A stretch of 64,000 nucleotides of DNA from Leucobacter sp. CX169 (GTDB lineage Bacteria > Actinomycetota > Actinomycetes > Actinomycetales > Microbacteriaceae): assembly GCF_017161405.1 (NCBI RefSeq), contig NZ_CP071051.1:1302001-1366000 (forward strand), in the 5' to 3' direction. The notes beneath the pieces are model-generated. The model searched no databases. It was not told the DNA's origin and worked only from the letters and a program-made list of their open reading frames with translations. The position numbers and the translations under genes were made by a program. How positions within the stretch are numbered: position 1 is the stretch's first letter; the number at the start of each line of letters is the position of its first letter. Positions 32,988-49,513 of the stretch are shown here, one piece after another.

Positions 32988-35900
32988 ATGGCAGAGCAGC
33001 GTGGGCGCGGCGCCCGCACGGGAACACTCACGCGGATCGCACGGGCGGGCTTTGTCGAGCTCACCGCCGCGCGCGACAGCCTGGCTGAGCTCGCCGCGGC
33101 GAGTGGCATCGCCGAGGACCGCTGGCTTGCGGCGCTGTCGCACGCCGCCGACCCGGACGTCGCACTCGTGCGCCTGCGCGCACTCGCCGAGGCGCAGCCA
33201 GAGCTCATGCAGGAGATCTCCCTGCATGATCCGGTGGACGACGGGCCCCTGGAACGATCGCACGCGGGATACACGCCGCTCCAGGCCCTCTCCCTCCTCG
33301 TGGGCGCCTCACCCGCGCTCGGGGACTTTTTCACCCGCCATCCCGAACACCTGCTCGAGATTCTGCTGCGCGGCGGCCGCCTTCCCGGCGCTGCGGAGCT
33401 GCGCGGCGAGCTCCTGCGCTCGGTCGGGGCCGATCCCGCGCGCGCGACCAGCCCCGCGGTCGCCGCCGAGGACGCCGGGATCCTGTCGGGAGAGGCCGGC
33501 TGGCGGGCCCTGCGCGTGCGCTATCGGGAGCTGCTGGCAGAGGTTGTGCTGGAAGACCTCGCGCGTGGCCCTGCAGCCCCCGAGGCCTTTGAAGAGGTCG
33601 CGGCGGCACTCTCCGACCTCGCGGCCGCCGCGATCGAGGCCGCGCTCGCGGTCGCCGCGGCGACGCTATCCCGCGACGGGGGCGCGGGACTGCCCATCGC
33701 CCCGGATCGGGTCGCGCTCACCCGACTCGCCGTCATCGCGATGGGCAAGTGCGGCGCGCGCGAGCTGAACGTGGTGTCGGATGTCGACGTCATCTTTGTG
33801 GTGGAGTCTGCCGACCCAGACGTTCTCGACACCGACGAGGCCATTCGGATCGGCACCCGGCTCGCGAGCGAGATGATGCGAGCGATCCACGACTTCTCGA
33901 TGGAGCCACCGCTCTGGCAAGTTGATCCGAACCTGCGCCCCGAGGGCCGTCAAGGCGCCCTCGTGCGCACCCTCAGCTCTCACCTTGCCTATTACGAGCG
34001 CTGGGCGCGCACGTGGGAGTTCCAGGCGCTGCTGAAGGCGCGTGCCCTCGCGGGGGACCTTGCCCTGGGCGAAGACTACGTCGCCCGTACGCGGCCCCTG
34101 GTCTGGGCTTCAAGCTCTCGCGACGATTTCGTCGGCTCCGTGCAACGTATGCGCGAACGAGTCACCGAGCACATCGAGGATGGCGCGCTCGAGGTGCAGC
34201 TCAAACTCGGCCCTGGCGGGCTGCGTGACGTCGAGTTCAGCGTGCAACTGCTGCAGCTCGTGCACGGCCAGTACGACGAGCGGTTGCGCCGGCGGGGCAC
34301 GATCCCCGCGCTCGAGGCCCTCGTGGACGGCGGCTACGTGGCCCGCGCCGATGGCGACGAGCTCGCCGAGGCATATCGTGAGCTTCGCGTGCTCGAGCAT
34401 CGACTCCAGCTGCGCGACCTGCGTCGTACCGCGCTCATGCCGACAGACCCGGACGGTCTGCGCGTGCTGGCGCGCGCCAGCCAGCTGGCTCCCGACGCCG
34501 AGGCGCTCCGCGCGCGCTGGGAAGAGACCAAGCGGCGCGTGCGCGAGTTGCATCTCAAAGTCTTCTACGCTCCGCTGCTCTCCGCCGTCGCCGAGCTTCC
34601 GGATGAGGATTTCGTGCTCGGCACGGAGGCCGCCAGGGCGCGCCTGCTTTCGATCGGCTTCCGCGACCCGGACGGGGCGATGCGCCATCTGGGCACCCTC
34701 ACGTCCGGCACCTCGCGCCGGGCTCTCGTGCAACGAAACCTCATGCCGGTGCTGCTGCACTGGTTCTCGGAGGGGGCCGACCCCGACTACGGCCTGCTCG
34801 CCTTCCGTCGCATTAGCGAGGGACTCAAGAATTCCTCCTGGTTTGTGCGCCTCCTGCGCGACAGCGCGGGCGCCGCGGAGCGCCTCACACGAGTGCTGGC
34901 GAATTCGCGTTTTGCCGGCGAACTGATGGAGACGATCCCGGAGTCCGCGGCGTGGCTCGAGCACGACGCGCTGCTGCGGCCGGTGCCGCTCGCGCCGCTG
35001 CGGGAAGAGATGCTCGCCCTTGCGGCGCGCCGTGACACCGCGGCGGCGGCGGCCCCTGGCCTACGGACCATTCACCGCCGGGAAGTACTGCGCACCGCCC
35101 TCGGCCAGCTGGTCGGGGTGAACGGTCCAGAGGCCGTATCGGCGGGTCTCGACGCTGCACACACCGCACTCCTCGAGGCATTGTTGGCAGCGATCCGATC
35201 GGAGCCTGAGCGTCAGTCGGTGCCCGGCCTCGAGATCGCCTTGATTGGGATGGGGCGATACGGGGGAGCCGAGCTCGGGTTCGCCTCAGACATCGACCTG
35301 CTCGCGGTGTTCCGTGCCCCGGAGGGCGTGGAGGGAGCGGCGAACGAGGCCGCCCGCGTCATCGCTGAGCTGCGCATGCTCGCCGCAGACCCACGGTTCC
35401 CACTCGACCTCGACTTCGATCTGCGCCCCGAGGGGAAGAACGGACCATTCGTCCGCAGCCTCACGGGCTATCGCAGCTACTACGAGCGCTGGTCGCTGAC
35501 TTGGGAAGCGCAGGCGTTGTTGCGGGCCCGCGCCGTCGCCGGCGATGTGGATCTCGGCGCCGACTTTATGCGGCTGGCAGACGAAATACGCTACCCCGAG
35601 GCCCTCGGCGAATCCGAGGCGCGCGAGGTGCGTCGCATCAAGGCGCGGGTCGAGGCGGAGCGACTCCCGCGAGGCGCTGACCCGCTGCGACATCTCAAGC
35701 TGGGACCCGGCGCGATCAGCGACGTGGAATGGCTGCTGCAGCTGCTGCAACTGCAGCATGCCGCCGCGCTTCCCGAGCTGCGGACCGCGTCGACAGTGGG
35801 CGGCCTCGCTGCCGCGGTGCGAGCGGGACTCCTCGACGAGGCGTCCCGTGAAACGCTCGAGACGGCTTGGAAGCTCGCGGGGGAGATTCGGTCAGCGAAT

Positions 35901-36098
35901 CGACTGTGGTCGGGGCGGGGCTCTGACCTGTTACCGCGCGAACGGGCGGACCTGGACGGCGTCGGGCGGATCCTGGGCTTGCCCACGCAGTCGACGACGG
36001 AACTTGAGGAACGGTATTTTGCAGCGACTCGCCGAGCACGCGCCGTTTTTGAGCGTGAGTTCTATGGGCGAGCGCCGGACGTGTTCCCGGCTGCGTAG
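32988..36098 (+). CDS. glnE: Bifunctional glutamine synthetase adenylyltransferase/deadenylase
   Basis: Controls GlnA1 by adding and removing AMP in response to nitrogen status via PII. The 1036-aa protein has two nucleotidyltransferase halves: GKCGARELNVVSDVDVIFV near residue 254 (deadenylase half) and GMGRYGGAELGFASDIDLL near 754 (adenylylase half). Each is followed by a helical GlnD-PII-type region containing LKLGPGGLRDVEF or LKLGPGAISDVEW. It is tightly coupled to glnA2. Its likely target Tyr is in GlnA1 at 38009-39433. Confidence 0.96.
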   Translation: MAEQRGRGARTGTLTRIARAGFVELTAARDSLAELAAASGIAEDRWLAALSHAADPDVALVRLRALAEAQPELMQEISLHDPVDDGPLERSHAGYTPLQALSLLVGASPALGDFFTRHPEHLLEILLRGGRLPGAAELRGELLRSVGADPARATSPAVAAEDAGILSGEAGWRALRVRYRELLAEVVLEDLARGPAAPEAFEEVAAALSDLAAAAIEAALAVAAATLSRDGGAGLPIAPDRVALTRLAVIAMGKCGARELNVVSDVDVIFVVESADPDVLDTDEAIRIGTRLASEMMRAIHDFSMEPPLWQVDPNLRPEGRQGALVRTLSSHLAYYERWARTWEFQALLKARALAGDLALGEDYVARTRPLVWASSSRDDFVGSVQRMRERVTEHIEDGALEVQLKLGPGGLRDVEFSVQLLQLVHGQYDERLRRRGTIPALEALVDGGYVARADGDELAEAYRELRVLEHRLQLRDLRRTALMPTDPDGLRVLARASQLAPDAEALRARWEETKRRVRELHLKVFYAPLLSAVAELPDEDFVLGTEAARARLLSIGFRDPDGAMRHLGTLTSGTSRRALVQRNLMPVLLHWFSEGADPDYGLLAFRRISEGLKNSSWFVRLLRDSAGAAERLTRVLANSRFAGELMETIPESAAWLEHDALLRPVPLAPLREEMLALAARRDTAAAAAPGLRTIHRREVLRTALGQLVGVNGPEAVSAGLDAAHTALLEALLAAIRSEPERQSVPGLEIALIGMGRYGGAELGFASDIDLLAVFRAPEGVEGAANEAARVIAELRMLAADPRFPLDLDFDLRPEGKNGPFVRSLTGYRSYYERWSLTWEAQALLRARAVAGDVDLGADFMRLADEIRYPEALGESEAREVRRIKARVEAERLPRGADPLRHLKLGPGAISDVEWLLQLLQLQHAAALPELRTASTVGGLAAAVRAGLLDEASRETLETAWKLAGEIRSANRLWSGRGSDLLPRERADLDGVGRILGLPTQSTTELEERYFAATRRARAVFEREFYGRAPDVFPAA

Positions 36099-36128
36099 CG
36101 GCACGAACAGAAGTTCACCTGGCGTTCT

Positions 36129-36178
36129 GGAAAAGTTTTCCCGAAGGTCTAGACCCAGGCCCCGGCTGAGCGTAACCT
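36129..36178 (+). promoter_or_regulatory. Promoter with two palindromes upstream of a 25-codon gene
   Basis: TAACCT at 36173-36178 lies 7 nt before ATG 36186. A candidate -35 (TAGACC, 36150-36155) lies inside the perfect palindrome GGTCTAGACC (36146-36155). Just upstream is another inverted repeat, GGAAAAGTTTTCC (36129-36141). The arrangement looks like a regulated promoter. Confidence 0.45.
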
Positions 36179-36185
36179 GATCGTT

Positions 36186-36263
36186 ATGAACTACCTCCAG
36201 TCATTCCTGGACGCGATCCTCGCCGAGGACGCGGACGAACTCGAGTCTGATCTCGAGTCCTGA
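36186..36263 (+). CDS. Leaderless 25-aa small protein or sRNA unit
   Basis: A 25-codon ORF starting MNYLQSFLDAIL, then an acidic tail (EDADELESD), ending in TGA. The N-terminal half would form an amphipathic helix. It is a complete transcription unit: -10 hexamer 7 nt before the ATG, and an 11-bp terminator hairpin 8 nt after the stop. No similar gene is known to me. It could encode a small regulatory peptide or be a short noncoding RNA. It lies directly after glnE, in a block of glutamine synthetase genes; a role in nitrogen control is only a guess from position. Confidence 0.5.
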   Translation: MNYLQSFLDAILAEDADELESDLES

Positions 36264-36271
36264 GTCGCCTC

Positions 36272-36309
36272 GCAGTCCGGCCCCAGCAAAGTTGCTGAGG
36301 CCGGACTGC
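36272..36309 (+). terminator. Intrinsic terminator of the 25-codon gene
   Basis: GCAGTCCGGCC at 36272-36282 pairs perfectly with 36299-36309, with AGCA/TGCT pairing inside the loop. The following bases are TCTAGTT, a weak U-tract. Confidence 0.75.
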
Positions 36310-36362: not shown

Positions 36363-36611
36363 ATGCAGAAAGAACGCGTTCGAGTTCGAGGTGCCGCGAT
36401 CCTCGCGGCGGCCGGGGTTGCGCTGGCTGGCCTCGTCCTAGCAGCTGTGTTCGTCCGGCTCTCGCTTGACTGGTCAGATGCCCAACCGTACGAGGGTGAC
36501 GTTACCGAGACACGGTACATCGTCTTCATGCTCATCGCGCTAGTGATCGCCGCGGGTGGCCTGCTGTGCGGTGTGTGGATCTATCGCAGGAAGACCCGCC
36601 GAAAGGCATAA
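36363..36611 (+). CDS. Small two-helix membrane protein, unknown function
   Basis: 82 aa with a basic start (MQKERVRVRG), helices near 12-34 and 53-74, an acidic loop between them, and a basic end RRKTRRKA. The charge pattern suggests both ends in the cytoplasm. No known domain is visible. It has a leaderless-type promoter of its own. Confidence 0.7.
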   Translation: MQKERVRVRGAAILAAAGVALAGLVLAAVFVRLSLDWSDAQPYEGDVTETRYIVFMLIALVIAAGGLLCGVWIYRRKTRRKA

Positions 36612-38008: not shown

Positions 38009-39433
38009 CTAGATGCCGTAGTACAGCTCGAACTCGTACGGGTGGGGACGCAGCGCCATCGGCTGAATCTCCATCGTGCGCTTGTCGTCAATCCAGGTGC
38101 GGACCAACTCTTCGGTGAACACGCCACCCTCGAGCAGGTACTGGTGGTCGTTCTCGAGAGCGACAAGCGCCTCGTCGAGCGAACCGGGAACCTGCGGGAT
38201 GTTCTTGGCTTCCTCGGGGGGCAGTTCGTAGAGATCCTTATCGATCGGCGCCATCGGCTCGATGCGGTTGCGGATACCGTCGAGGCCTGCCATCAGCTGG
38301 GCCGCGAACGCGAGGTACGGGTTGCTCGATGCGTCGGGAGCGCGGAACTCGATGCGCTTCGCCTTCGGGTTGGTGCCCGTCAGGGGGATCCGGATGGCCG
38401 CCGAGCGGTTGCCCGCCGAGTAGGCGAGGTTCACGGGAGCCTCGAAGCCCTTGACCAGGCGACGGTAGCTGTTGATGGTCGGGTTCGTGAACGCGAGCAG
38501 CGACGGGGCGTGTGCCAGGATGCCGCCGATGTACCAGCGAGCGGTGTCCGAGAGACCGCCGTAGCCGTTCTCGTCATAGAACAGCGGATCGCCGTTCGCC
38601 CACAGCGACATGTGGGTGTGCATGCCCGAGCCGTTGTCACCGAAGACGGGCTTCGGCATGAAGGTGGCGGTCTTGCCCCACAGGTCGGCCGTGTTCTTAA
38701 CGACGTACTTGAACTTCATGACGTCATCGGCAGCCTTGACCAGGGTGTCGAAGCGGTAGTTGATCTCGGCCTGGCCGGGCGCGCCCACCTCGTGGTGCGA
38801 GCGCTCGAGGATGAGACCCGATTCGATCAGGCGCAGCGAGATATCGTCGCGGAGGTCGGCCTGCTTGTCGGTGGGGGAGACGGGGAAGTAGCCGCCCTTC
38901 TGCGAGGTCGTATAACCGGGGTTGCCACCCTCCATCTTCTTGCCGGAGTTCCAGTGCGCTTCTTCCGAGTCAATCTCATAGAAGGTGCGCTGCGCGGTGG
39001 TCTCGTAGCGGACCGAGTCGAGAATGTAGAACTCTGCCTCGGCTGCGAAGAACGCGGTGTCAGCAATGCCGGTCGAGGCGAGGTAGCGCTCCGCCTTCTT
39101 TGCGACCTGGCGCGGGTCGCGCGAGTAGATCTCGCCGGTGCGCGGGTTGAAGATGTCGAACAGCATGATGAGGGTCTTCTCGGCCCGGAACTGGTCGAGG
39201 TACGCCGTCGTGACGTCGGGAATGAGCTGCATGTCCGACTCGGCGATTCCGGAGAAGCCACGGATCGACGAACCGTCAAACATCTGACCGGTGACAAAGA
39301 AGTCCAGGTCTACGCTTGCGGCGGGGACATTGAAGTGCTGCTGCACACCAGGGAGATCGGTGAACCGAACGTCAAGGAACTTGACGTCGTGCTCTTTGAT
39401 GTAGCTGAGAACTTCTGCGGGCTCGCGAAACAT
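38009..39433 (-). CDS. glnA: Type I glutamine synthetase GlnA1
   Basis: Main ammonium-assimilating enzyme, 474 aa, dodecameric GSI-beta. Motifs include [51 protein letters not shown] and NRSAAIRIP. The adenylylation site is Y402 in [11 protein letters not shown], the target of GlnE encoded at 32988. AAAAGGAG precedes ATG 39433. A GlnR-type operator with four half-sites lies upstream, placing the gene under nitrogen control at both transcription and activity level. Confidence 0.97.
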
Positions 39434-39501: not shown

Positions 39502-39539
39502 GTTTCTTCGGCGTTTACCCTGTGTTTCGCGCAGGTTAC
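39502..39539 (-). promoter_or_regulatory. GlnR-type operator of glnA1, four half-sites
   Basis: On the minus strand the order is GTAAC-6nt-GAAAC-6nt-TAAAC-6nt-GAAAC. This matches the GlnR box known from Streptomyces and mycobacteria (gTnAC-n6-GaAAC, in tandem), with one deviation at the third half-site. GlnR itself is not encoded in this window. Confidence 0.75.
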
Positions 39540-49310: not shown

Positions 49311-49513
49311 GGCGTCCTCCCTTCGCTTTCGCTTACTCGCAATCCAAGCATGTTCTGCTGAGTGTTCGGTTCTTCGGATGGGTGTTTCGCTCAGCGCGTA
49401 GCCGGGATCCTGCCGGAGAGCCCCAGAAGCCGCACTCGCCGGTGAACCTGACGAGCGGTGTCGGTGGGTTCGCATAGGGTGGACAAGTTGCCACAGATAA
49501 GGAGCACATCGCC

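Follow-up and report, generated by a model that had tools for sequence, protein, structure and literature searches.

Between glnE and glnA1, the window (the whole stretch of DNA analysed, 64,000 nucleotides) contains a reading frame of 25 codons, here called the sORF. The locus raises the question of whether this frame is a gene, which signal would control it and on what its product might act. The features of the locus are:

32988..36098, plus strand: glnE (glutamine synthetase adenylyltransferase), from the ORF call and GlnE C-terminal homologues.
36113..36156, plus strand: four 11-nt direct-repeat units, GTTCACCTGGC, GTTCTGGAAAA, GTTTTCCCGAA and GGTCTAGACCC, at -73, -62, -51 and -40 from the sORF ATG, PHO-box-like by sequence, phase and the pstS matrix.
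36129-36141 and 36146-36155: palindromes GGAAAAGTTTTCC and GGTCTAGACC, respectively, both within the repeat array.
36173-36178, plus strand: TAACCT as -10 hexamer; the ATG (36186) follows after 7 nt, and the last repeat unit begins 27 nt upstream.
36186-36263, plus strand: 25-codon ORF, MNYLQSFLDAILAEDADELESDLES*, a predicted leaderless microprotein, from orthologues and purifying selection.
36272-36309, plus strand: GC-rich hairpin with an 11-bp outer stem, starting 8 nt 3' of the stop, likely a U-less terminator.
38009-39433, minus strand: glnA1, convergent with the sORF and farther downstream.

The two palindromes, the TAACCT hexamer, the 25-codon ORF and the 11-bp hairpin 8 nt past the stop had been listed in a first-pass annotation, and all of them are present in the window sequence. 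The location between glnE and glnA1 was also given correctly, with two further ORFs intervening, one membrane-like (82 aa) and the other glyoxalase-like. The 82-aa ORF (36363-36611) has TAAGCT 6 nt before its ATG and is another leaderless candidate; it had no counterpart at the same place in the Leucobacter loci, and its Pfam matches were all sub-threshold.

Orthologues of the sORF were found in 41 of 54 Leucobacter genomes (40 by genus search, the 41st by reading the glnE flank), which with the window's genome gives 42 loci downstream of glnE. glnE is the upstream neighbour in every checkable locus (it was not located in L065), and the glnE-sORF gap is 76-240 nt, the value for L073 being measured from a wrong start. 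Searching 200 family genomes with the 25 residues returned two homologues directly 3' of glnE, in one genus (Leucobacter). A 25-row profile was run against 400 family genomes, and its full-length matches were confined to Leucobacter and to the sister genus to which the window belongs; sub-threshold matches in other Microbacteriaceae were short, lay nearly all within larger ORFs and were rejected as homologues. Among GTDB contigs, the promoter/start DNA pattern GCGTAAYCTNATYGTTATG matched Leucobacter records and no other actinobacterium. Judged by profile searches of Pfam, NCBIfam and PDB, none of which gave a credible relative, the peptide is an undescribed protein family; plasmids searched by tblastn had no match either.

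In the GlnE tree the window's genome adjoins Leucobacter, at a fork that is not strongly supported. Presence and absence of the sORF amount to five changes on this tree, which may be read as a single gain, made before Leucobacter and its sister genus separated, and several losses. About nine Leucobacter genomes with a readable flank lack the sORF and keep glnE, and the sORF is therefore not an obligatory GlnE partner. Where it is absent, glnE abuts glnA1 in some genomes and has a rearranged 3' flank in others.

All 42 frames are exactly 25 codons long, with zero indels. Median pairwise dN/dS was ~0.13 (NG86, 42 copies), and entropy at codon positions 1, 2 and 3 was 0.65, 0.31 and 1.30. The earlier claim had been that of a self-contained, undescribed small-protein gene, with a comparison of the reading frame and of synonymous and nonsynonymous change in relatives as the suggested check. 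In the relatives holding the locus the frame is intact (42/42) at this dN/dS, and the claim stands; by these comparisons the sORF is almost certainly a protein-coding gene. A chance ORF with a chance promoter and hairpin could be argued from the fact that every element is common by itself and that no sigma-70 consensus promoter was called. Reading frame, frame length and -10/ATG spacing are, however, above chance across the 42 loci, and retention in 42 genomes at fixed length under purifying selection refutes this explanation, whose remaining probability is negligible.

The peptide consensus is M(N/Q)YLQSFLEALLAEDGAEFEDELES. Its N-terminal half is hydrophobic and helix-like (helical hydrophobic moment of residues 2-14, 0.36 vs 0.21 in shuffles, SD 0.11), its C-terminal half is acidic, and the net charge is -6 to -9 across orthologues.

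For the start region, a TAnnnT hexamer was found 6-7 nt before ATG or GTG in 42/42 loci, and a Shine-Dalgarno-like sequence in 0/42. Leaderless genes of actinobacteria are arranged in this way, with a -10 hexamer just before the start codon and no Shine-Dalgarno (PMC4633059). Because both features hold throughout (42/42), the sORF mRNA is predicted to be leaderless, which is very probable on this sequence pattern. Two orthologues (L067 and L068) have another -10 hexamer, TATGGT, and retain the 6-7 nt spacing, which supports leaderless initiation. GTG is the start codon in three orthologues (L067, L068 and L056).

Strong stem-loops follow the stop codon in most orthologues; they have no U-tract and their sequences are divergent. 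The hairpin in the window likewise has no U-tract, and a simple terminator scan made no call there. A strong hairpin behind a short ORF is reminiscent of a leader/attenuator, and shuffled sequence folds less well than this region (z = -5.3), so that the RNA itself might be the product (a small RNA, or an attenuator with a leader peptide) and the ORF incidental or a leader only. This is very unlikely given the selection on amino acids (dN/dS 0.13, with least constraint at the third position), the wide variation in hairpin position and sequence, and the lack of any Rfam match above gathering score. There is also nothing downstream to attenuate, since the neighbour on that side varies from genome to genome and is often a convergent glnA1.

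The coding reading leaves the question of control. The palindromes had been counted among the elements of the unit; each perfect palindrome occurs in 1/42 loci, the window only, which does not exceed chance. There it is embedded in the 11-nt direct-repeat array, and both were rejected as operators. The conserved promoter feature is instead a series of GTTCACC-like units that recur every 11 nt, at -73, -62, -51 and -40. The PHO box of Streptomyces is made up of such 11-nt repeats of GTTCACC (PMC6988585). In pstS promoters from 30 genomes of the same clade, GTTCACC-N4-GTTCACC is matched at 13 or 14 of 14 positions, the third unit is mostly GGCAGACC, and the -10 stands 27 nt from the start of this third unit. 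The repeat-to--10 distance in the sORF promoters is 27 nt as well.

A weight matrix was trained on the 30 pstS promoters alone and then applied to the sORF promoters. Averaged over the 42 promoters (-100..-26), it peaked at -84, -73, -62 (maximum) and -51, the maximum being at the offset predicted from pstS geometry. When both strands of the entire 3-kb locus were scored, the top site fell at one of these in-phase offsets in 8/42 loci (~0.03 expected), and a rank of 4 or better in the own locus at an in-phase offset was reached in 15/42 single loci. In about ten diverged loci (e.g. L047, L049, L057, L072, L077 and L178) the array is degenerate, weak or missing. That of the window is moderate, at rank 100 of 127,936 positions and second best in its 3-kb locus. 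The top matches in other parts of the window, at 49452 (minus strand) and 49784 (plus strand), lie in or beside unrelated genes; single-site scores are therefore unspecific, and the phase pattern across genomes was used instead. The matrix z-scores do not count as independent evidence because conservation raises the averages within the coding region too; the in-phase pattern does.

The three-unit array with a -10 at 27 nt was seen in Leucobacter pstS as a clade-specific PHO promoter signature (loci L179-L208 and L239-L248) and is usable for mapping the Pho regulon. L240 is an exception, with no such array seen ahead of its pstS match.

GlnR-type boxes (GTnAC-N6-GaAAC) were present in 1/42 sORF promoters vs 27/30 amtB promoters, and GlnR control of the sORF was rejected on this count. 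Upstream of glnA1 in the window there is a GlnR-type box, GTAACCTGCGCGAAAC (39524-39539, minus strand). Because the sORF promoter is pstS-like and GlnR-type sites are nearly absent from it, phosphate control (PhoP/RegX3 type) is preferred over nitrogen control, and the sORF is quite probably under Pho-type control as far as promoter sequence can indicate. Alternatively, a different member of the OmpR family, such as GlnR or MtrA, might recognise the repeats, with the sORF controlled by nitrogen or growth. Related 11-nt repeats are recognised by Streptomyces PhoP, GlnR, MtrA and AfsQ1, which compete at glnA/amtB (PMC6988585), and the window's genome has eight PhoB-family matches. Against this, the amtB-typical site is missing from 41/42 sORF promoters, and repeat sequence, phase and distance to the -10 all agree with pstS, which makes another regulator improbable. 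A protein-coding gene together with Pho-type control, the target excluded, is likely as a combined reading.

A nitrogen-related role had been suggested in the first-pass annotation. The suggestion is supported in part: the glnE/glnA1 neighbourhood makes a nitrogen-related target conceivable, and the predicted input signal is phosphate and not nitrogen, as the promoter is pstS-like and not amtB/glnA1-like. For the possible target, PII (GlnB/GlnK, PF00543) was searched for and was absent in 22/22 genomes (the window's genome and 21 Leucobacter with or without the sORF); a control search with PF00543 was positive in 13/14 reference genomes. The same PII-less genomes carry GlnE and AmtB. Since GlnE deadenylylates glutamine synthetase (GS) by phosphorolysis, removing AMP with Pi as substrate, a phosphate input at GlnE would be biochemically sensible. 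The GlnE/GS node is named here as a tentative target of the peptide, suggested by gene neighbourhood and less likely than not. Streptomyces PhoP down-regulates glnA, glnII, amtB and glnR (PMC6988585), and nitrogen-limited Sinorhizobium has a lower GS activity when phosphate is low (PMC5127829). The most specific form of the proposal, in which a Pi-starvation-induced 25-aa microprotein has GlnE or GS as its direct target in GlnE-containing, PII-less bacteria and supplies a phosphate signal in place of the usual regulator, is unlikely as it stands.

A phosphate-starvation microprotein might instead have a target unrelated to nitrogen, for instance the Pho sensor/regulator, the Pst transporter, the ribosome or RNA polymerase; the adjacency to glnE would then be inherited synteny and no more. 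This is a substantial possibility. The promoter fits pstS and not amtB, GlnE can do without the sORF in the Leucobacter that retain glnE alone, and synteny is readily inherited inside one genus. The position beside glnE across 42 genomes speaks against it, and so does the observation that most sORF-less genomes have the rearranged glnE 3' flank or the abutting glnA1; both arguments are weak, since the gene has been seen at this place only.

For the mechanism, we infer a monocistronic gene whose leaderless mRNA would be transcribed from a PHO-box-type promoter, with the last repeat overlapping the -35 region, and would end at the hairpin 3' of the sORF. A response regulator of the OmpR family (PhoP/RegX3 type) would switch the sORF on when phosphate is short. 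A PhoB-family regulator is encoded ~15 kb from pstS in the window's genome, and this, like the lack of PII, is compatible with the model. The induced, strongly acidic and amphipathic peptide would then be translated directly from the 5' start codon, and its hydrophobic face would contact a partner. With the neighbouring GlnE/GS node as a first guess for this partner, nitrogen assimilation might be tuned to phosphate supply without PII.

With 25 residues across Leucobacter and the sister genus, the family lies at the lower size limit of genes and is missed by standard annotation. The regulatory signature would link phosphate status to a gene between glnE and glnA1, and the sORF makes the control of GlnE/GS in PII-less actinobacteria a testable question. 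The product may be an undescribed tiny protein that couples phosphate and nitrogen supply.

Among known small proteins acting on GS are the cyanobacterial GS-inactivating factors IF7 and IF17, which are basic and larger than 25 aa; the sORF peptide has 25 aa and a net charge of -6 to -9. Closer in size is sP26 (23 aa), for which an interaction with GlnA1 of Methanosarcina mazei has been reported and which did not bind stably in cryo-EM work (PMC11957540). The neighbourhood of the sORF hints at a GS context, with GS binding by its peptide hypothetical; sP26 is archaeal and no homology is claimed. With the Streptomyces Pho regulon (PMC6988585) the sORF promoter shares 11-nt direct repeats with a GTTCACC core upstream of the -10. 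Its repeats are more degenerate, its response is predicted, and its product is a 25-aa orphan in place of a transporter, phosphatase or known regulator. The leaderless small-protein genes of mycobacteria (Shell et al. 2015, PMC4633059) are likewise unannotated small ORFs with an RTG just past the -10 and no Shine-Dalgarno; in contrast to these, the sORF, known here from sequence, belongs to a different actinobacterial family and is a single gene with its own hairpin, uncoupled from the downstream ORF.
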